IMG/VR virus record: IMGVR_UViG_3300011252_000671
Coordinates: 1 to 24,689 of that record
DNA length: 24,689 bases
Strand: one strand, 5' to 3'
Source: a virus
The notes below the pieces were generated by a model. The model saw nothing but the letters and a program-made list of their open reading frames with translations. It was not told where the DNA came from and did not search any database. This document shows, one piece after another, positions 14,240 through 24,028 of this stretch (the first letter of the stretch is position 1; each line of letters begins with the position of its first letter). The position numbers and the translations under genes were made by a program.

Positions 14240-14445
14240 CTGGTTTCGTTAATAACCTCGATGCCCATCCCTCCGAAAAGAACGACAGCATCGTCCGCTG
14301 TCTGGAGTGCGTGTTCAAAAACGCGTTCGTCTTCAAACTGCTCGGCAAGGCGCAACAGGACGTCGGTGAGAGCGACGAACGAAGCCACTTGATCGGGGTG
14401 CATGTCCTTGAACCCAACCGTCTTGATGTCTTTCTTAAAGTTCAT
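14233..14445 (-). CDS. Small conserved-looking protein downstream of DNA polymerase, unknown function
   Basis: A 70-residue protein (MNFKKDIKTVGFKDMHPDQV at the N-terminus). The start at 14445 overlaps the polymerase stop as ATGA, with GGGGAGAAG 5-13 bases upstream, so it is very likely coupled. The sequence is acidic and helical (ASFVALTDVLLRLAEQFEDERVF) with no recognised motif, and ends in VLFGGMGIEVINETSY. It is the last gene of the minus-strand replication operon. Its 3' end overlaps the end of the convergent giant virion gene by 7 bases. It might be a small replication accessory, but there is no direct evidence. Confidence 0.68.
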   Translation of the reverse strand: MNFKKDIKTVGFKDMHPDQVASFVALTDVLLRLAEQFEDERVFEHALQTADDAVVLFGGMGIEVINETSY

Positions 14446-16352
14446 CCAACTTCTCCCCAATTGCTGCCAAGTTCGGCGTCCACCTTAGAGGGCACTTTTA
14501 AAGTCACCCCAGTCTCCATGATCTCTTTGATCCGGTCAGCTTGCTCGGGGCTCTCTACCGAGAAGCATAGCTCGTCATGCACAGTGAGAGAAGGAATAAG
14601 TCCCTCCGCGTAGCAATCGGCCATCGCTTTTTTGGTCTGGTCCGCGGCGGAGCCTTGGATCAATTTGTTCAGGGCCTTGTAGGTGAAAGCCCGCTTGACG
14701 AACGGTCCATACTCCTTCCGGGCATCTTCCAGAGGGAGGGGCTTCTTGTACTCCGTGCTCCAGTGAGACGGCTCGTACAGATGGAATCGTCCCTTCCGGC
14801 CCAGCAGCGTGCGCACCTGTCCGTGCTTCTCCGCCTGCTTGGAAGCAAGTGTTGCTAGCTGACGAACGAAAGGAACCTTATCCTCGTGCTCGGACATAAT
14901 CCGTTTAGCCTCTTCGACGGAAATACCAAGCTCGTTGGCCAGCTTGGCGAAGCCCATGCCGTACATGATGCCGAGGTTCACGGCCTTCGCTTCCTTGCGG
15001 CTGATCCCCGCGATGTCAGCGGTCATCTGGTGCAGGTCAACGTCCGCTCGGTTGTACTCGTCAACAATTCGATTGAGCACCGGACCACGCATCGAGTCCG
15101 GAAGGCTGGCTGCGAAATGGACGAGGAGGCGCGGCTCCTGCGAGGAGTAGTCAAAGGAACCCCACTGCGCTCCGGGCTCCGGGACGAACAGACCGCGGAT
15201 CAGGGCCTTGAGCTCCGGGACGCGAGCCGGAATCTGCTGGAGGTTGGGGTTCGAGGACGAGAACCGCCCCGTCACTGTGCCCCCATCTTCGCCTCGCAGC
15301 TGATGAAACTCGCAGTGAATGCGGCCCTTGTGCTCATGCTGCAGGATCGTCTCGATGAACGTGCCGTCAGCCTTATCGAACTCTCTCAATTTCACGATGG
15401 CTCCAGCGACTTCGTGCGGGTGAGCGTTGAGGAACTGCTTCGTGAAGGACGGCGCTCCGGCCTCGGTCTCGGGATACTGAAGATTGAGAGAGTCAAACAC
15501 CTGCCGGACGGAATCCGCGGCCCAAGGTTCGATGGCCACGCCTGTCCTGTGTTTGATGAAGGCCTTCAGTTCTTGGACCTTGGACCTCAGACCCTTGCGC
15601 GCCATGTCTGCCTTGTCCAAATCAACAGCAACGCCACGGCTTTTCATGTCGAGCATGAGCGGAATCAAGCCTGTCTCCAAGGTGAAGATGCTCCCGAGCT
15701 CTTCCCTTGTGATGTGGGTCTGCAGGTTGCGCCACAGCTTCAACGTCATTGCCGCGTCTTGTTCCGCGTAGCCTCCGACGAACTGGGCGGGGAGTTGCCA
15801 CATGTCTTTCTTTGCATCGAGACCCCAGTCCCTCGCTGCTGCGCGCAGCATCCGCTCGTCCTTGCGCATGTCGATGTAATCGCGGCCGAGGTTGTTCAGG
15901 CTGTACGAGAAGCGGTTCTCGTCAACGAGAGGCGCCGCGATCATTGTGTCAACAATGCGGCCCTTAACCTCTACACCCTCAGACCGGAGCCACCCTGCAT
16001 CGTAGGTGGCATTGTGCATGACGACGGTCAAATCTTCGCGTGACAGCTGCTTCTTCAACCAGCGCATGGTCATCTTGGGATCGAGGTTGTGACCGTTCTT
16101 GTGCCGGATCGGGAAGTACCACTCTTGGTCCCCCGTCGCGATGGCGATGCCCACAATGTACCCGTCGTTGCGTGTCCAACCCGGGCCGAGCGTCGTCAGG
16201 TTCGGGTCTTTGGTTTCTAGGTCAAGGCCAATCTCAGCGCATCCAGATAGGTCGGGGTACTCTGCCGGGATGTTCCAATCGTCTTCCTGCTGGCCGAACT
16301 CCAGCCTCGTCAGGAAACCAGCGGTTTTTGTATCCAGCTGCTTTTTGGCCAT
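14442..16352 (-). CDS. polA: Family A DNA polymerase (PolI-type) with 3'-5' exonuclease
   Basis: A 636-residue replicative polymerase. ATG 16352 is preceded by GAGGA at an 8-base spacing. The 3'-5' exonuclease domain shows Exo I LDLE (Asp44, Glu46), Exo II HNATYD (Asn114, Asp118) and Exo III YAEQD (Tyr195, Asp199). The polymerase domain shows motif A FDYSSQEPR (Asp401), motif B RKEAKAVNLGIMYG (Lys456, Tyr464) and motif C VHDE (Asp593). There is no N-terminal 5'-nuclease domain, as usual for phage PolA. The residue matching E. coli Phe762 is Leu460. It is the penultimate gene of the replication operon, with its start 119 bases inside the HTH gene upstream. Confidence 0.97.
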   Translation of the reverse strand: MAKKQLDTKTAGFLTRLEFGQQEDDWNIPAEYPDLSGCAEIGLDLETKDPNLTTLGPGWTRNDGYIVGIAIATGDQEWYFPIRHKNGHNLDPKMTMRWLKKQLSREDLTVVMHNATYDAGWLRSEGVEVKGRIVDTMIAAPLVDENRFSYSLNNLGRDYIDMRKDERMLRAAARDWGLDAKKDMWQLPAQFVGGYAEQDAAMTLKLWRNLQTHITREELGSIFTLETGLIPLMLDMKSRGVAVDLDKADMARKGLRSKVQELKAFIKHRTGVAIEPWAADSVRQVFDSLNLQYPETEAGAPSFTKQFLNAHPHEVAGAIVKLREFDKADGTFIETILQHEHKGRIHCEFHQLRGEDGGTVTGRFSSSNPNLQQIPARVPELKALIRGLFVPEPGAQWGSFDYSSQEPRLLVHFAASLPDSMRGPVLNRIVDEYNRADVDLHQMTADIAGISRKEAKAVNLGIMYGMGFAKLANELGISVEEAKRIMSEHEDKVPFVRQLATLASKQAEKHGQVRTLLGRKGRFHLYEPSHWSTEYKKPLPLEDARKEYGPFVKRAFTYKALNKLIQGSAADQTKKAMADCYAEGLIPSLTVHDELCFSVESPEQADRIKEIMETGVTLKVPSKVDAELGSNWGEVG

Positions 16353-16698
16353 AGTCTTTGTCCTCGAGTAAGTTTTGCGCGCGCGCGTGGTTTCTGTGAA
16401 CGTACACCGTGCTGACGGCGATGCCGAGCTCCAGCGCAATCTCTCTCGCGAAGAGGCCCCTTTTCGTCATCTCAACAACCCGATTCATGTTGCCGCGGGC
16501 GCAGGTTCGAACAATCGTGTTTTCCGGATTCCGCAGGTGGCTGAGATGATAGTAGACACCCCCTCGAGACAGGCCCAACTCGGCGGCGATCTCCTCCGCC
16601 CGCAAGCCCTGCCTTCGAAGCTCGCGGACCTCTGGTCCCCTGCCCTCACTTGCGACAACCTTTTTCCGGCTTTTTCTCAGCCTCTTTTTCCGGATCAT
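16234..16698 (-). CDS. Small basic protein with two helix-turn-helix repeats
   Basis: A 154-residue protein whose ATG at 16698 overlaps the helicase stop as ATGA. The first 13 residues are strongly basic. Two similar HTH units follow: LRRQGLRAEEIAAELGLSRG-VYYHLSHL (about 27-55) and MTKRGLFAREIALELGIAVST-VYVHRNH (about 77-104). This resembles tandem resolvase/LuxR-type HTH helices used to bind DNA. Residues 116-154 are encoded in a frame that overlaps the start of the polymerase gene by 119 bases and look unstructured (Arg/Pro/Gly). It may be a transcription regulator or an origin-binding helper of the replication operon; the partner site is unknown. The functional part probably ends near residue 115. 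Confidence 0.75.
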   Translation of the reverse strand: MIRKKRLRKSRKKVVASEGRGPEVRELRRQGLRAEEIAAELGLSRGGVYYHLSHLRNPENTIVRTCARGNMNRVVEMTKRGLFAREIALELGIAVSTVYVHRNHARAQNLLEDKDYGQKAAGYKNRWFPDEAGVRPAGRRLEHPGRVPRPIWMR

Positions 16699-18236
16699 AT
16701 CTCGTACCTGTAGTTGCGCCGACCACCCTCGTACATCGGAGGTTCCACGATGTGGAGGACCCGCTTGGCTCGAGTCACCCCCACGTAGAACACCCGGTGC
16801 TCGGCCTCCATCGTCGCGGTCTCTTCGATCATTTTCGTGACGCCCGTGAACAGGACACAGATGTCGTCCTCGCCGCCCTTCATCGCATGGATGGTGGAGA
16901 CCTTAATGCGAGGGGGCTTGGTCAGGTCCTCCCCGGTACGCTCAATGCGGCGTAGATACTGAGACAGCTGGTCGCCAAGACCCAGAACGTCGAAGACGTC
17001 CCGCTCGATCGCGCCCTCATGCATGCCATACTTCTCCACCAAATCCGAAGCAGACATCCGCTCCTCCTCGAAAATAGTACCGAGGAGCGAGGAGGCTCCA
17101 CGTTTGAGCACGGCCCTCGGACCTTGCTTCGGGAGGCTCTTGTAGAGCACGGCCACCTCCGCGGCGGAGATCGATCCTCCGTCGGCCAACGTCCGCCACA
17201 AAGACAGCGCCGTGATCTTCTCCTCTGAGATCGGCGGCTTTCCCCGCAGGGAGTAATAGTAGCCCATGTCGTGGATGGCCCCGGCCAACCTCGTGGCGAT
17301 GGCGTTGGTGCGGGCCATGACAGTTATCGATCCCTCGGCGAGAGGGACATCAGACAAGCGGTTGTGCCAGCGTACCTCGCCTTTCTCCGGCTTGGGGTGG
17401 TACTCTTTCGGAACCCTGTTCCGAATCCGGTGAACGATACGGTCAGCCAAATTGAACACAGCCTCAGGTAGGCGGTACGACTGCGTTAGAATCCGACGCT
17501 CGTCGCCGTATGAGACAAAGCTTTTTGCCTCCGACCCGCTCCATTCGTGGATGGCTTGGTCATCATCCCCAGCGGTGAAGGTACGCTCGGCGTTGGCCGC
17601 GATCTTCTTTGCCATCTCCCACTGCAGCGGGGTCAAGTCCTGTGCCTCGTCAAGGATAAAAAGCTTGAGTTGAGGTGCCTCGCCCGAATCGACGTATTGC
17701 TGGATCATGTCGACAAAATCGAGCTTGAACATGCGTGTCTTATACAGGGCCATCTGATCTTGTATCTGCCGGCACTTCGCCTGTGACATTTCGAAGGTTT
17801 GGTGAAAGCGCCACTCCTCTTCAATGTCGACCATACGATACCGAGCCCGATCTATGATCGCCATGTATCGACCGCCTTTGTCATGCCCCCATGGCAGCAG
17901 AGTACCCTCGTCAGGTCGGTTGCGGTCGAAGGTGAAAACCTCTCCCAGCATCCGGCCGAGGGCCTCGTAATCGTCGCGCTTCATGACGTCGTCTTTGTTC
18001 AAGCCCAGAGCGCGGAACGCGGTGGAGTGCAGCGTACGCATGTGGTCGAAGTTCTTGCTGTCGACATTCAAACGAACCGTCACTCGGTCCTTGAACTCGT
18101 TGATCGCCTTGCGGGAGAAAGAGCACACCGCGACCTGAGAGGGGTGGGTACCCGCGCTTAGTTCATCCTCCAGTACGTCCATCAGCGCCGTTGTCTTGCC
18201 GCAACCCGGAGGGCCAAAGATTTGTGTCACCGTCAT
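16695..18236 (-). CDS. UvrD/Rep-like superfamily 1 DNA helicase
   Basis: A 513-residue ATP-dependent helicase. Seen motifs in order: Walker A GPPGCGKTT (8-16), Walker B LFILDEAQD (192-200), motif III TFTAGDDDQAIHEWSGS (219-235), motif IV QSYRLP (252-257), motif V VSTIHAMKGGE (446-456) and motif VI RVFYVGVTRAK (481-491). These define the UvrD/PcrA/Rep family, which translocates 3'-5' on single-stranded DNA. It is shorter than cellular UvrD (about 720), with reduced accessory domains. AGGAGA lies 8 bases before ATG 18236, and the gene follows the primase by 11 bases. With no DnaB-type helicase visible, it may serve as replication helicase or in recombination. The HTH gene downstream is coupled by ATGA. 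Confidence 0.95.
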   Translation of the reverse strand: MTVTQIFGPPGCGKTTALMDVLEDELSAGTHPSQVAVCSFSRKAINEFKDRVTVRLNVDSKNFDHMRTLHSTAFRALGLNKDDVMKRDDYEALGRMLGEVFTFDRNRPDEGTLLPWGHDKGGRYMAIIDRARYRMVDIEEEWRFHQTFEMSQAKCRQIQDQMALYKTRMFKLDFVDMIQQYVDSGEAPQLKLFILDEAQDLTPLQWEMAKKIAANAERTFTAGDDDQAIHEWSGSEAKSFVSYGDERRILTQSYRLPEAVFNLADRIVHRIRNRVPKEYHPKPEKGEVRWHNRLSDVPLAEGSITVMARTNAIATRLAGAIHDMGYYYSLRGKPPISEEKITALSLWRTLADGGSISAAEVAVLYKSLPKQGPRAVLKRGASSLLGTIFEEERMSASDLVEKYGMHEGAIERDVFDVLGLGDQLSQYLRRIERTGEDLTKPPRIKVSTIHAMKGGEDDICVLFTGVTKMIEETATMEAEHRVFYVGVTRAKRVLHIVEPPMYEGGRRNYRYEI

Positions 18237-18247
18237 CGTTTTGTCTC

Positions 18248-19780
18248 CTAGAATGGGATGTCATTCTTGACATCTTGGATGGCGTATTCAGCGGGCTCGT
18301 CGTCATATTCCTTGACCCACCAAACCCGGACCTGTGCCCGAGAGCCATCCGACCTGTAGTAATTGATCTTGCCGTGGCACTCCTCGACCCCGGTGACCCG
18401 CTTGAGCTCCTGCTGAATCTTGCCTGACGTGTATTCAGTGAACGCTCTACTGCGCAGGAAGTTCTCAAGGGCGTCCATCTTGAAGTGAATCTTGCCGTCA
18501 CTGAACCACGGCTTCCCGTTGAACACTTCAGCGGACTCCATGGCTTGCACCGATCCGGTGCAGAACTGCTTGAGCAAATCCTCGAATTTACCCTCAAGGG
18601 TCAGTTCGCGCGGCACCTCGATGAAGACCGCTTCCTTCAGCATGCCATTGACGAGGCCCGTCCAATCCTGCTGCTTGATGGTGCTGGGCATAAAGTGAAT
18701 CTGCTCTGTCACCTTTTTCTGCCACTTGGTCTGGTTCACCAGTGACTCCGAGTCTAGCTCGACGCGCTTTCCATTCACATCCATGAAGTAATATGGCGGC
18801 TGGGTCAGGATCACCGTTAGCCCACCGACCGTGGCCTTGCTCTCAGCGTCACCGTTCACACCGAACGGGCAGTTCTTGCAGGCCAGCTTGTCGCAATGAG
18901 ATTTGAATGGCTCGGTGTCGCACGTCGGCCCGTACTCTTTTTTCTCGAGAGACTTCTGCAGATTGACCACCTCCGTGGCCGCGAGAGGTGTGGTAAATAC
19001 CTGCCCGTTGAAGCTCTCCATCTGCATCTTCCAATCGTCCGGCCACTTCCGCTTGCAGTATAGTCCGATCATGAACATGATTAGATTGCGGTTGTCGGAC
19101 ACCGGACCATCTTTCAGGATGTACCGAAGACAGGCGTAACCATCACTGAACCACTCGCGGCTCCCCGAAACCTTCGACATGTCGATCACTGCGGGGCTGC
19201 ATCGTATCGCCTCCACCGCATCGAGAAACTCATCGAGGCTCATGGCCTCTCCGTTCTCGTCGAAGCAGTAGCGTGTTGTGGTGTCCGCGTTGTGGTACGG
19301 CATGTTGATGAAGCTGCCGAGATCACCCCGCTCGGAGAGAATCTCGTCCTGCTTGGGAAATATCTCGCAACCGGAGAAGCCAAGAGAGATAGATATCTCG
19401 GCCAGATACTCACGGATCAACGACGCCGGGTACCAGTCGTCGAGAAACAGATAGACGTGTGCCCCTCCCGACTTTGATCTGCACATCAGCATAGGGAGCT
19501 TGGTCTCCCTGATCTTCTTGTTCAATGCTTTGAGGTCGAGATTGTATGTGTCGATGTCGAGCGCCCCAAACCGAACCATGTTCTGGTCTGTGATCGGCAC
19601 GGCGCCGTAGCCTTGCCCGCCCTGAATGTGCTCTGACACCATGTCCACGGTCATCTGACCACGGATCATCATGCTTTTCGCTTCTGCCTTGCCGCCTCGT
19701 CCTATGCGGCCAACCGTTGTTTTCCCGTGCGCATGCGTCGATCCGTCAAACGCGCGCAGCAGTCGTTCCGCCTGCGTCAT
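18248..19780 (-). CDS. Archaeo-eukaryotic-type primase (AEP, TOTE-like)
   Basis: A 510-residue protein with CGGAGATAAC before ATG 19780. The AEP catalytic core is visible as FGALDIDTY (Asp75, Asp77), SKSGGAHVYLF (Ser104, His108) and CEIFPKQ (138-144), matching the DxD, sxH and third acidic/strand motifs of phage and TOTE-type AEP primases. A later Cys set (C287, C296, C301, C304, with His295) likely binds Zn or an Fe-S cluster. The remaining 200 residues are a helical/beta C-terminal domain of unknown role ending in DVKNDIPF, like the C-terminal tip of SSB. It would synthesise primers for the linked PolA. Primase-polymerase activity is possible but untested. It lies between the SSB-like gene and the helicase gene. 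Confidence 0.88.
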   Translation of the reverse strand: MTQAERLLRAFDGSTHAHGKTTVGRIGRGGKAEAKSMMIRGQMTVDMVSEHIQGGQGYGAVPITDQNMVRFGALDIDTYNLDLKALNKKIRETKLPMLMCRSKSGGAHVYLFLDDWYPASLIREYLAEISISLGFSGCEIFPKQDEILSERGDLGSFINMPYHNADTTTRYCFDENGEAMSLDEFLDAVEAIRCSPAVIDMSKVSGSREWFSDGYACLRYILKDGPVSDNRNLIMFMIGLYCKRKWPDDWKMQMESFNGQVFTTPLAATEVVNLQKSLEKKEYGPTCDTEPFKSHCDKLACKNCPFGVNGDAESKATVGGLTVILTQPPYYFMDVNGKRVELDSESLVNQTKWQKKVTEQIHFMPSTIKQQDWTGLVNGMLKEAVFIEVPRELTLEGKFEDLLKQFCTGSVQAMESAEVFNGKPWFSDGKIHFKMDALENFLRSRAFTEYTSGKIQQELKRVTGVEECHGKINYYRSDGSRAQVRVWWVKEYDDEPAEYAIQDVKNDIPF

Positions 19781-19797
19781 GTTATCTCCGTTCTGGT

Positions 19798-19844
19798 GTG
19801 AGAAAGAACGGCCCGTGTATCATTGCGTGACACACGGGCCGTTC
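19798..19844 (-). terminator. Intrinsic terminator or attenuator between SSB-like and primase genes
   Basis: GAACGGCCCGTGT at 19806-19818 and its perfect complement at 19832-19844 form a 13-pair GC-rich stem with a 13-base loop. Read on the minus strand the stem is followed by TTCTTTCTC, a moderately U-rich tail. It starts 7 bases after the SSB-like stop. As the primase follows in the same direction, partial termination would make upstream proteins more abundant than replication enzymes; it could also act as a 3' mRNA stabiliser. Confidence 0.75.
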
Positions 19845-19851
19845 AAGGTTC

Positions 19852-20646
19852 TTAGAACGGGATGTCGTCCGGAGACATGTCATTGGAGCTACCGCTCGGC
19901 GTGCTCTCTTCCGACGCGGCCTTCACTTCCCCTGCCTCAATCGACTGGCGGAAGGTCTTGGCTTCTTGGTACAGTTCGCGATCCTCGATGAGACCCTCAC
20001 GCTCCACCACCCAGTTGGCCCAGTCACCTTGGTCGTTGCTCTCTTCGACCGAGCGCAACGTCCAGATCGTGGCGTACAAAGGCGGGGTCACCTTTCGACC
20101 ATCCGGAGCGGTCACTTTCTGCATTGCGATCTGGGTCTTCCAACGGCGGCTGACCTTCAGCTGAGTAGACTTCATATCGATCACAGCAGGCTGAGACGAC
20201 CCGTCTTCGTCCACGATCAGGCAGAAATGCTGATCGCTCTTTACGAGTTCGTTGCCGTTGGGCAAGATTTCCTTGGACCCAGACCGGGTGGTCTGCTGAA
20301 GCAGCGGGCTGCTTGCAGGGATTTCTCCACGGAAACCGCCCCCGGCATCTCGAGGTGTGAATTCAAGATACTTCGTGGTCTGGAAGCAAGGGACGACCTT
20401 GATCCCTGTCTCTCCGTTCCAGTATTGACCCGTCACATTGTTGAACGCATCGCCAGACGAAGCGCCATCAATGTACTCCGGCTTCTTCTTGTTAAGCTGC
20501 GGGCTCAGTGCCTGCAGCAGACGAACGAAGGGGATTTGCATCTCGTCAGCGGAGAAGGCAGCACCCTCCCCGGCGTCGAGCATCATATCGTCCATCAGGT
20601 CGGTGGACACGGCGGTGTTCTTTGCTTTTGCAACTGCGGTTGTCAT
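19852..20646 (-). CDS. Putative single-stranded DNA-binding protein
   Basis: A 264-residue protein; I chose ATG 20646, preceded by GGAGAAAATAATC, because residues further upstream in this frame are Arg-rich shadow of the previous gene. It contains FVRLLQALSPQ (40-50), QYWNGETGIKVVPCF (74-88), PNGNELVKS (129-137), STQLKVSRRW (160-169) and WTLRSVEESNDQGDWANW (195-212), which I recognise as a widespread phage family next to replication genes. The last 20 residues are acidic and disordered and end in SPDDIPF, the hallmark tip of bacterial SSB, absent a classical OB-fold signature I can confirm. SSB function is therefore inferred from tail, aromatic content and operon position. Confidence 0.72.
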   Translation of the reverse strand: MTTAVAKAKNTAVSTDLMDDMMLDAGEGAAFSADEMQIPFVRLLQALSPQLNKKKPEYIDGASSGDAFNNVTGQYWNGETGIKVVPCFQTTKYLEFTPRDAGGGFRGEIPASSPLLQQTTRSGSKEILPNGNELVKSDQHFCLIVDEDGSSQPAVIDMKSTQLKVSRRWKTQIAMQKVTAPDGRKVTPPLYATIWTLRSVEESNDQGDWANWVVEREGLIEDRELYQEAKTFRQSIEAGEVKAASEESTPSGSSNDMSPDDIPF

Positions 20647-20648
20647 GA

Positions 20649-21206
20649 TTATTTTCTCCGAATTTCTGCAGCGTTGACGATGTATGCCCCGAACATGTCG
20701 AGGTCGATTGCTTTCCCGTTCTCGAAACGCTCTTTCACGAACGCCTTGAGGGTCATCGGGTGGATCGCAGTCTTGGTCTGCGGGTTGAAACCATCTGCTT
20801 CCAGACGGGCAACGAGATCGCCTGCCTTGTTGTCTTCGCCTCGGCCGAAACTCAGCGACACATCGTTCTTGATGATGTCGTCGAGACCCTCTTGACGAAG
20901 CCATCCATAGGCCTCCTCTTTCCGGTCCCCCGGAATCGAAGCATGCACGATCAGCTTCCTGCTGACGGTCACGCCGTCAACGTCGAGGCGCTCAACGCCC
21001 ATCTCGTCCATCAGTGCAGGGATTTGCTCAGTCGACAGCTTGTGCTTCTGCTGCTTCAGAGCCTTGATGTGCTCCTCCGCGTCCTTGATCTCCCGCTCTA
21101 CGCCGCGGAGATTGCGGACGAGGTGGGACAGTGTCCGCCCCTTGTCCGCATCGACATCGCCCAAGGCTGCGGCGTCGTCGAAAATGTCTTCAAAGATATC
21201 TGTCAC
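20649..21206 (-). CDS. Conserved phage protein of unknown function, coiled-coil N-terminus
   Basis: A 185-residue protein starting at GTG 21206, with GAGGA 8 bases upstream; it is the first gene of the minus-strand replication operon and ends 2 bases before the SSB-like start. Residues about 28-60 form a charged coiled coil (VEREIKDAEEHIKALKQQKH). The following region, IPALMDEMGVERLDVDGVTV, EAYGWLRQEGLDDIIKNDVS, SFGRGED and IHPMTLKAFVKER, is a pattern I recognise as a widespread phage family that sits beside SSB-like genes. The role is not known to me. Its constant partnership with the SSB-like protein suggests work in early replication or recombination, as inference. Confidence 0.8.
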   Translation of the reverse strand: MTDIFEDIFDDAAALGDVDADKGRTLSHLVRNLRGVEREIKDAEEHIKALKQQKHKLSTEQIPALMDEMGVERLDVDGVTVSRKLIVHASIPGDRKEEAYGWLRQEGLDDIIKNDVSLSFGRGEDNKAGDLVARLEADGFNPQTKTAIHPMTLKAFVKERFENGKAIDLDMFGAYIVNAAEIRRK

Positions 21207-21290: not shown

Positions 21291-22760
21291 ATGTCAACAG
21301 CAATCGACCCGAAAACATTCAAGACCACGCCCTACCAGCATCAGACGGATGCATTGGTGGAGGGAGCGGATGAAGAGTCTTTCGGTTTTCTCATGGAGAT
21401 GGGGACCGGTAAATCAAAATGCCTGATAGACAACATGGCACATCTTTACTTGAAGGGAAAGGTCGACTTTGCACTCGTGATTGCGCCCAAGGGTGTGTAC
21501 CGAAACTGGGTTTCCAAAGAGATACCCGACCACCTGACCGACAACATCCCGCACCGGGTCATCCGCTGGGTCGCCAATCCGAACAAGGCACAACGCGCCG
21601 AACTCCAGTCCGTCGGCCAGAACTTCGAAGGCCTCACCATCTTCGTGATGAACGTCGAAGCGTTCTCCACACTGAAGGGTAAGAAGGCGGGTGATTGGAT
21701 GTCCGATCGTCTCGGACGAACAGGCATGATCGCCATCGACGAGTCAACCACCATCAAGAATCCCAAGGCAAAGCGGACCAAGTCATTGATGAAGATCGCG
21801 GCAGGGTTCTCTTATCGCCGCATCCTGACCGGATCGCCCGTGACCAAGTCGCCCATGGATATCTACGCGCAGTTCGAGTTCCTCGGACCTCGGCTCTTGG
21901 GCCACGATTCTTTCTACAGTTTTCAGAGCCGCTACGCTGTCATGGTCAAGAGGAGCATGGGTCGACACAGTTTCAACCAGCTGGTCGGCTATCGAAACTT
22001 GGACGAGCTCACCGAACAAGTCGATCGACACAGCTTCCGCGTCCTGAAAAAGGACTGCCTCGATCTGCCGGAGAAAATTTACACCGCGCGATATGTGTCG
22101 ATGACGGACGAGCAACGACGCATGTACGCGCAGATCAAAGAGTACGCCATGACGCTGCTTGAGGATGGGGAACTGGTGTCGGCCCCGCAGGTCATCACGC
22201 AGCTACTTCGCCTGCAGCAGGTGCTGTCTGGGCATCTCAAGACGGACGACGGTGAGATGGTGTACTTCCCCTCCAAGCGCATGGACGCACTGATCGAGGC
22301 GCTCGACGAGCACGACGGCAAGGCGATCATCTGGTCACGCTTCCGGTATGACATCCAGCAGATCGTGCGCGAACTGGAAGCGAAGTTCGGCGAGGGTTGT
22401 GCCGCATCATACTACGGGGACACCCCCGATGACGAGCGCAACGACATTGTCCAGAACTTCCAGAATCCCGATCACCCGCTCCGCTTCTTTGTGGGCAACC
22501 CAGCGACCGCCGGGTACGGACTGACGCTGACCGAAGCAAACCTCTGCGTCTACTACGCGAACGACTTCAACCTCGAAACCCGCATCCAAAGCGAAGACCG
22601 AGCGCACCGCATTGGACAGAAGAACAACGTCACGTATATCGACCTGATCACAGAAGACACAATCGACGAGAAGATCGTGCAGGCGCTCCGTGCTAAGATC
22701 GAGATCGGCGCCAAGGTTTTAGGAGAGGAGGTGCGAGAATGGCTAAACGTCGGGAAGTAA
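21291..22760 (+). CDS. SNF2-like superfamily 2 helicase/translocase
   Basis: A 489-residue ATPase preceded by TTGGAG before ATG 21291. Motifs in order: Q-like YQHQ (15-18), Walker A MEMGTGKS (35-42), Ia VIAPKGVYRNW (63-73), Walker B AIDEST (148-153), motif III LTGSPVT (179-185), motif V GNPATAGYGLTLTEA (402-416) and motif VI SEDRAHRIGQ (435-444). This is the SNF2/SWI2-type core of a double-stranded DNA translocase, in the compact form common in phages. Two RecA-like lobes fill nearly the whole protein, with no nuclease or chromatin-binding domain. It is transcribed away from the replication operon and probably helps fork remodelling or recombination. Its end overlaps the next gene by 22 bases. 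Confidence 0.95.
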   Translation: MSTAIDPKTFKTTPYQHQTDALVEGADEESFGFLMEMGTGKSKCLIDNMAHLYLKGKVDFALVIAPKGVYRNWVSKEIPDHLTDNIPHRVIRWVANPNKAQRAELQSVGQNFEGLTIFVMNVEAFSTLKGKKAGDWMSDRLGRTGMIAIDESTTIKNPKAKRTKSLMKIAAGFSYRRILTGSPVTKSPMDIYAQFEFLGPRLLGHDSFYSFQSRYAVMVKRSMGRHSFNQLVGYRNLDELTEQVDRHSFRVLKKDCLDLPEKIYTARYVSMTDEQRRMYAQIKEYAMTLLEDGELVSAPQVITQLLRLQQVLSGHLKTDDGEMVYFPSKRMDALIEALDEHDGKAIIWSRFRYDIQQIVRELEAKFGEGCAASYYGDTPDDERNDIVQNFQNPDHPLRFFVGNPATAGYGLTLTEANLCVYYANDFNLETRIQSEDRAHRIGQKNNVTYIDLITEDTIDEKIVQALRAKIEIGAKVLGEEVREWLNVGK

Positions 22761-23241: not shown

Positions 23242-23781
23242 TTAGCCCAGTTCTTGCTCGACTTCAAACTCTTCTACACTCAAAGCCCACAAAGTCATGG
23301 AGGCTCGGCCTTGACCCGGAGTCCGGTAAACCAAGGCTCGGGCGATCTCCCCATCCGAATGCAGTTGCGAGCATGCCCGATGTACTTCGTTAGTCCCGGC
23401 TCGAGGGTCGTTCAGCGCTGAGACAAGCGAACTGGTGCTCGTGGGGCCCACCTTTTTCAGGTACTCGTAGAGGATTTCTTGTACCGGGGGCTTCGTTTCT
23501 GGCTTCTCCAGAACATCTGGCTCTGGCTGAGCTTCGGGGGCGCCGGCACGGATGGCACGGTACGGAATCTCATCTCGTTTATCCTCGTAGTTTGGCAGCA
23601 CATGACACCGGGTCAAGTCACCCTCCTGCAGCCCCACCGCTTCGATGAGGCGCGTGTTCAGGAACACTCGATCTCCCTCTGATGTGGTGCCGAAGGCGCT
23701 ATTGTATCGGGTGATCGTCTCGATGAAGACCGTGGTTTCTTTGGCCTGAGGAAACTTAGTGTACACGTCGGCTCGGTTCAT
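23242..23781 (-). CDS. Putative DNA-binding protein with C-terminal winged helix, unknown role
   Basis: A 179-residue protein; ATG 23781 has AAAGGA 8 bases upstream and is preferred over a GTG at 23820. Residues about 13-75 are beta-rich (TTVFIETITRYNSAFGTTSE, DRVFLNTRLIEAVGLQEGDL) and resemble a small cold-shock or OB-like barrel. A Pro/Glu linker follows (about 80-100). The C-terminal 75 residues, VQEILYEYLKKVGPTSTSSL, then HRACSQLHSDGEIARALVYR and SMTLWAL, look like a winged helix. It is the last gene of the leftward small-gene operon and overlaps its upstream neighbour by 26 bases. A regulator role is plausible; the family is not known to me. Confidence 0.72.
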   Translation of the reverse strand: MNRADVYTKFPQAKETTVFIETITRYNSAFGTTSEGDRVFLNTRLIEAVGLQEGDLTRCHVLPNYEDKRDEIPYRAIRAGAPEAQPEPDVLEKPETKPPVQEILYEYLKKVGPTSTSSLVSALNDPRAGTNEVHRACSQLHSDGEIARALVYRTPGQGRASMTLWALSVEEFEVEQELG

Positions 23782-24028
23782 TCTCTTGTCCTTTGTCTGA
23801 GATTTGTTTTTCTTCCACACGGGCGAGCACCATCCTCACCGTGTCGTCGTATAGTTCTTTGCCTACGCAAGTCCTGAGCGCACTCAAGGCCGATGTCAGT
23901 AGGATGGGCAGGAGGATCATAAGGTTGGCGTTTCTCCCCCTCCAATGGCTCAAGAGGCGGAGGGTCTCTTCGCCCGCTATCTTGGCTTCTTGCTCTAGTA
24001 GGTTTTCCAACTCATCCTCTGTCATCAT
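23756..24028 (-). CDS. Small protein of unknown function with a hydrophobic segment
   Basis: A 90-residue protein. Starts are possible at ATG 24028 or 24025 (or TTG 24031); I chose 24028, 9 bases after AGGGA. The N-terminus is acidic and helical (MMTEDELENLLEQEAKIAGE), the middle holds a hydrophobic stretch NLMILLPILLTSALSAL (about 34-50) after basic residues, and the C-terminal part is charged. The segment could be a membrane helix or the core of a helical bundle. It overlaps both neighbours (17 and 26 bases), consistent with coupled translation. There is no recognisable family. Confidence 0.62.
   Translation of the reverse strand: MMTEDELENLLEQEAKIAGEETLRLLSHWRGRNANLMILLPILLTSALSALRTCVGKELYDDTVRMVLARVEEKQISDKGQENEPSRRVH

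Follow-up and report, generated by a model that had tools for sequence, protein, structure and literature searches.

Matching C-terminal tips co-vary between an SSB-like protein and a primase in phage replication operons

Why would a primase end in the same residues as a protein resembling a single-stranded DNA-binding protein (SSB) that is encoded beside it? This question is raised by a 24.7 kb virus record (IMG/VR record IMGVR_UViG_3300011252_000671, 24,689 nucleotides, analysed over its whole length and referred to below as the window), in which a replication operon on the minus strand encodes an SSB-like protein of 264 amino acids (19852..20646) followed by an AEP primase of 510 amino acids (18248..19780). 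In bacterial replication, SSB tails serve as the principal docking peptides, and a literature search of open-licence papers found none that reports a phage primase with an SSB-type tip. A preliminary description of positions 18248-19869, which extend from the stop of the primase gene as far as the tip of the SSB-like protein, had reported a DIPF tip on both proteins, and the translated genes confirm it: the SSB-like C-terminus reads NDMSPDDIPF (SPDDIPF, 19855..19875, minus strand) and that of the primase IQDVKNDIPF (DVKNDIPF, 18251..18274, minus strand). Across related phages, the tips of these two non-homologous proteins co-vary at the protein level, and this co-variation does not reach beyond the last five residues.

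Among IMG/VR relatives of the primase with 50-86% identity, all 14 end in [DE][IV]PF and the residues preceding the tip vary, so the earlier proposal of a conserved tip behind a drifting linker is borne out. A PF ending was found in 0 of 1366 helicase, PolA, gp33-like and SNF2 proteins of the collected loci, and an acidic-PF ending in 3 of the 8522 remaining stop-terminated open reading frames (ORFs). As close relatives keep the tip while the other proteins and ORFs of these loci almost never end in this way, the likeness between the two tips is not due to chance. Entropy per position in 191 non-redundant primases climbs from 1.67 bits at the last residue to ~3.7 bits at -6 and further inward. 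In the AlphaFold2 model of the primase, the last strand (residues 481-490) is followed by a coil tail with a pLDDT of about 60 (residues 491-510; 18251..18310, minus strand), and residues 239-264 of the SSB-like model also form a coil tail. Both C-terminal tails are therefore predicted to be unfolded, and the objection that the primase tip might sit in a folded core fails against this model. A second objection, that homologous primases might lack a conserved DIPF end, fails for close relatives, all of which keep the tip, and distant ones exchange it for another matched tip, the exceptions being Nanhaivirus, loci L106/L107 and HTVC023P.

The key lead to this exchange came from distant phages, namely Acinetobacter phage Bhz9 (GEF/SEF, written here as SSB-like tip/primase tip), Providencia phage Kokobel2 (SEF/AEF) and Pelagibacter phage HTVC027P (QDIV/ENIV). 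In the last of these, an ending of the form [DNE]I[VIL] occurs only in the SSB-like protein and the primase among 124 ORFs of 60 or more amino acids. The comparison covered 402 loci from IMG/VR, GTDB genomes and INPHARED with complete ends of both proteins, and matched pairs, besides QDIV/ENIV, include DIPF/DIPF, APF/APF, KSII/TDII, EDII/EEIV, SNY/SNY, KQPY/EAPY, EAPY/ETPY, TSF/GSF, VEM/VEM, ESNF/ESNF and the extended IPFA/PPFV. Within a phage, similarity over the last four residues exceeds that of shuffled pairs (z 10.9 for 129 clusters at 70% identity, p<=0.0005), also under coarser clustering (z 7.2 for 59 clusters at 50% and z 5.5 for 22 clusters at 40%, each p<=0.0005). By position, the match from -1 to -5 has z values of 9.4, 10.2, 5.3, 2.7 and 2.4, falling to 0.5 at -6, and the signal vanishes when the comparison is moved four residues inward. 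The tips of the helicase, polymerase, gp33-like and SNF2 proteins showed no association with those of the SSB-like protein and primase (z -1.1 to 1.5).

Loose convergence of generic acidic-hydrophobic tails, with each end kept independently, would account for the predominance of phenylalanine in the final position of the two families (135 and 139 of 191) and for PB1-like helicases, which match in the terminal F only. Shuffled pairs retain such preferences and yet fall far short of the observed pairs, in which exact identity at -1, -2 and -3 was seen 94, 77 and 34 times against expectations of 62.9, 40.8 and 14.6, and we regard this explanation as highly improbable. When SSB-like proteins were shuffled inside clades only, z ranged from 2.65 (60% identity clades) to about 10 (40%), and in a distance regression including both protein bodies the SSB-like tip still predicted the primase tip (beta 0.43, p 0.001). 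A natural swap is provided by loci L348 and L261, in which the SSB-like bodies are 79% identical and the primases 44%, with tips of ESNF/ESNF in the former and KSII/TDII in the latter.

The match is not tied to one kind of primase. No AEP primase was detected in any of 14 representatives of the SSB-like family by a search that finds 6/6 positives, and the SSB-like tip is still there. The matching end is borne by a primase-helicase of another type (RepB_primase plus DUF5906) in YuA-group phages, with KPVF/KPPF in YuA, MW2 and Bhz59, KAPF/KDPF in PAKlein3 and KAPF/DSPF in Simon. The VapE-like helicases of the PB1 group have a terminal F in 6/6 cases and accompany an SSB-like protein ending in EEF, EQF or EGF, a looser match (for example, AEEF/GEDF). 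Phages VP2, 69E27.1 and BUCT555 were negative for such a match. An analogous tip match thus exists with at least one other primase family.

Gene order bears on a further explanation, in which the end of the SSB-like gene recombines with the adjoining primase gene and shared ancestry or linkage produces the likeness with no common receptor. The SSB-like gene does immediately precede that of the primase at 184 of the 191 non-redundant loci. However, the segments of the SSB-like body closest to the primase gene follow the primase with r 0.27-0.45, compared to 0.55 for the middle; pairs encoded by non-adjacent genes still resemble each other (GEF/SEF, SEF/AEF); and the YuA genes are about 16 kb apart. 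Linkage also leaves the same residues in two unrelated proteins unexplained. At residues common to both tips the same codon is used in 155 of 363 cases, with 168 expected, and since codons are not shared beyond expectation, DNA copying was rejected as the source, gene conversion is disfavoured and the likeness is one at the protein level. Linkage is therefore a weak explanation, and a very unlikely one.

The preliminary description had considered peptide mimicry within one operon, and this idea is supported by tips that are conserved, predicted to be unfolded, alike in unrelated proteins and co-varying within a phage, as within-phage co-variation is the expected outcome when the docking peptide of one protein is mimicked by another. 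It had also proposed that the primase could compete for host SSB-binding pockets (DnaE-chi, PriA, RecO), which as a family-wide rule is not upheld, because the tips leave DIPF together while host SSBs stay IPF or LPF. In eight genomes carrying such loci, including SAR11, Sneathiella, Desulfosporosinus and Mycoplasmatota, the standard host SSBs end in IPF or LPF (DDDIPF, DDEIPF, DDLPF), and phage tips in genomes of this kind are KQPY/EAPY, EAPY/ETPY, AMPY/NEPY and NNQF/EERF. Phage tips did not follow the host SSB tip across the family in the loci-carrying genomes checked. A host SSB-type pocket is unlikely as the family-wide target, judging from phage tips that differ in several of the genomes whose host SSBs keep IPF/LPF.

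If both tips nevertheless copied the tail of the host SSB, they would dock on chi, PriA, RecO or RecG. The DIPF of the window equals the common bacterial SSB tip and would fit a host SSB-type pocket, and this particular tip may dock on host proteins. On three alphaproteobacterial contigs (L259:6914-9262, L273:2201-4954 and L275:6902-9685), related AEP proteins fused to a helicase-like part end in DDEDIPF, DEDIPF and DEDLPF; no SSB-like gene was found in the locus, and these proteins could be true host SSB mimics. Against such copying, the tips of related phages become SEF, II, IV, PY and SNF in step while host SSBs keep IPF. In addition, Vibrio phages VP2 and 69E27.1 and Stenotrophomonas phage BUCT555 encode a standard SSB (DDDIPF) directly after an SSB-like gene ending in DEM, AEM or AKV (L544:3917-5268, L537:3923-5631 and L545:3851-5137). 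We consider host SSB mimicry improbable as the explanation for both tips.

The reading that we prefer is that the SSB-like and primase tips are probably interchangeable C-terminal ligands of one phage-encoded site of the replication machine. From sequences and predicted structures, to which the whole analysis is confined, we infer that both tips would bind the same site, that this site would be phage-encoded and that its function would be a hand-over. If the site is shared, the SSB on single-stranded DNA and the priming enzyme would take turns there, and this alternation would place the primase on the SSB-coated template or hand it over to it.

The closest known counterpart is bacteriophage T7, used as a control, in which gp2.5 ends in DGDF and gp4A in DTDF, and all but one of 26 T7-like loci have acidic F/Y ends on both proteins. 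The gp4 tails dock on basic patches of T7 polymerase (PMC12593628, PMC5997990, PMC8835902), and the gp2.5 tail also competes with single-stranded DNA for its own groove (PMC2965674). In both systems the SSB and the priming enzyme of one phage have an acidic unfolded tail with a matching hydrophobic end (terminal phenylalanine in T7), whereas the proteins studied here belong to other families (a PF23977 SSB-like protein and an AEP-TOTE primase) and their tips end in F, Y, I, V or M and co-vary across a very diverse set. Bacterial SSB C-termini share the DIPF letters and the acidic unfolded tail (PMC10164576, PMC10018359), and differ in that the protein with the tip here lies outside PF00436, a further enzyme bears it as well and the tips of relatives depart from DIPF.

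Where might the site lie? SSB-like tip distance correlated with body distance at r 0.505 for the primase, 0.271 for the helicase, 0.243 for the SSB-like protein's own body and 0.197 for gp33, and at r 0.258 for PolA in a smaller set; in joint regressions, only the primase body had a clearly significant coefficient. As the tip follows the primase body best and the tips of L348 and L261 change together with the primase, these comparisons suggest that the receptor belongs to the primase or is inherited together with it. Our tentative first choice is a pocket that may lie on the priming enzyme or be passed on with it, reached by SSB tails in trans and by the tail of the enzyme itself either in cis or across subunits. 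The family A DNA polymerase of the window (14442..16439, minus strand; PF00476, E 1.6e-58) is a possible but doubtful site by analogy with T7 gp5; docking on the polymerase is a feature of T7, and here the tip distance does not follow the PolA distance. The SF1 UvrD-like helicase (16695..18236, minus strand; Pfam match) is also a candidate receptor, with a non-matching end of its own (NYRYEI) and no tip association. The core of the SSB-like protein is an unlikely site, and a location other than the priming enzyme, polymerase or SSB-like core a somewhat less likely one.

A specific form of the SSB-like core proposal is that, in the absence of DNA, the protein shields its DNA-binding groove with its own tail and that the primase tail is a copy docking the primase on the SSB, much as short motifs bring human PrimPol to RPA (PMC5457501). 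PrimPol is likewise an AEP-type primase recruited via short motifs; its motifs bind RPA directly, however, with no shared tip on RPA. The SSB-like protein, alone among the partners, is always present where the tips occur, other primase families included, but the correlation of tip distance with the SSB-like body is poor (r 0.24) next to that with the primase body (0.5), and the predicted model has no docked tail. This arrangement is distinctly unlikely.

Several results weigh against a single shared, phage-encoded site. The loci were gathered by primase similarity, which may favour correlation with primase distance, and clade structure makes up part of the global tip signal, which drops to z 2.65 within 60%-identity clades. 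A tree-based independent-pairs test leaned towards matching (4.2 same against 0.4 opposite), with too few informative pairs to decide. Tips do not match in the 023Pt group (SSB-like STPY, primase EEHF or similar), in L106/L107 or in the VP2 group, and in Nanhaivirus the SSB-like protein ends in EVPF/EIPF beside a primase without a tip. A column-level scan for coevolution singled out no receptor protein or pocket, the best partial correlations being spread over the primase, SSB-like protein, helicase and gp33. Finally, the SSB-like family keeps its tips in phages without a primase of the window's type, and the AEP primase therefore cannot be the sole receptor.

Some individual C-termini were of interest in their own right. 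Primases of the 023Pt clade (L017, L109-L156) have an internal K-x-P/A/E-Y motif (e.g. SKTPYQIENF) that resembles the SSB-like STPY, and beyond this motif they continue into a short acidic stretch with a terminal F. In record ct3Et533 (L016:7206-7955), the strand annotated for the SSB-like gene is seemingly wrong; read on the plus strand, its frame ends in NKDIPFA, and the primase ends in PPPFV, both one residue longer. Dinoroseobacter phage R26L (L599-L602) encodes an ORF of ~400 residues ending in DDEVPF like that phage's SSB-like protein, with a primase that has no tip, and an identity of this Nanhaivirus ORF as exodeoxyribonuclease V was unsupported by its sequence. Phages R5C and Pan1 have in common a small protein ending in SIPF/SLPF.

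Occurrence of the same co-evolving peptide on an SSB-like protein and a priming enzyme suggests a general rule that has so far been described mainly for T7. Tip matching would offer a means of predicting, without structures or assays, which phage proteins use one docking site, and the candidate receptor is directly testable with short peptides. On a more speculative and rather doubtful extension, many tailed phages would have a private, evolving tail code, in which one short terminal peptide that differs from the host SSB code is shared by the SSB-like protein and whichever priming enzyme they use, with the receptor on the priming enzyme and the enzyme's own tail acting as a pseudo-ligand displaced by SSB on DNA. 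Such a code, if true, would control the timing and place of primer synthesis and would keep the phage replisome apart from the partners of host SSB.

The identities of both proteins rest on profile and fold comparisons. The SSB-like protein belongs to the Pam3_Gp34 family (PF23977, E 3.4e-69, 233.7 bits against a gathering cut-off of 27; phrog_2402), and it is not a canonical bacterial SSB, as a Pfam scan to E 0.1 gave PF23977 only and no PF00436. In its predicted model (pLDDT 89), a putative OB-fold core is followed by the unfolded tail. Structural matches were mostly OB-fold proteins that bind single-stranded DNA, with modest Z; VIA-align matched this model to a phiC31 integrase-RDF fusion (Z 8.7), RB69 gp32 (Z 6.8; gp32 cores 6.6-6.8) and then many OB-fold SSBs (Z 3-4); Foldseek gave no match below 1e-3 and a PDB sequence search no relative. 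These model comparisons are suggestive of an OB-fold protein that binds single-stranded DNA. The family is annotated mostly as hypothetical in INPHARED (503 phage records), no paper on Pam3 gp34 as a replication protein was found among open-licence papers, and the tip result supports an SSB role for it.

The primase falls within the AEP-TOTE/PrimPol superfamily (PF22548, E 3.1e-15, 56.9 bits against a cut-off of 27; phrog_21866, E 3.9e-83), with the catalytic domain matched at residues 42-173 (19262..19657, minus strand). It shares the AEP catalytic fold with the CRISPR-associated PrimPol (CAPP) of Marinitoga (7nqf, Z 20.1 over 189 residues, 21% identity). In contrast to CAPP, the window has no CRISPR context, the match covers the N-terminal part only, and the phage primase adds a C-terminal region and the tip; the protein scores far below the curated cut-off of the CRISPR-associated PrimPol family NF040561 (39.6 bits against 200).

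From ORFs and profile matches, the minus-strand operon runs in the order gp33-like protein, SSB-like protein, AEP primase, UvrD-like helicase, helix-turn-helix protein and family A DNA polymerase. The Pam3 gp33-like gene (20649..21206, minus strand; PF23984) has a homologue in 361 loci, mostly directly upstream of the SSB-like gene. An SNF2-type helicase of the replication module is encoded on the plus strand (21291..22760; PF00176, E 7.3e-21). Adjoining the AEP-TOTE and SNF2 genes, a small protein at 23242-23820 has a weak match (E 0.058) to S1/CSD domain 2 of TOTE systems.
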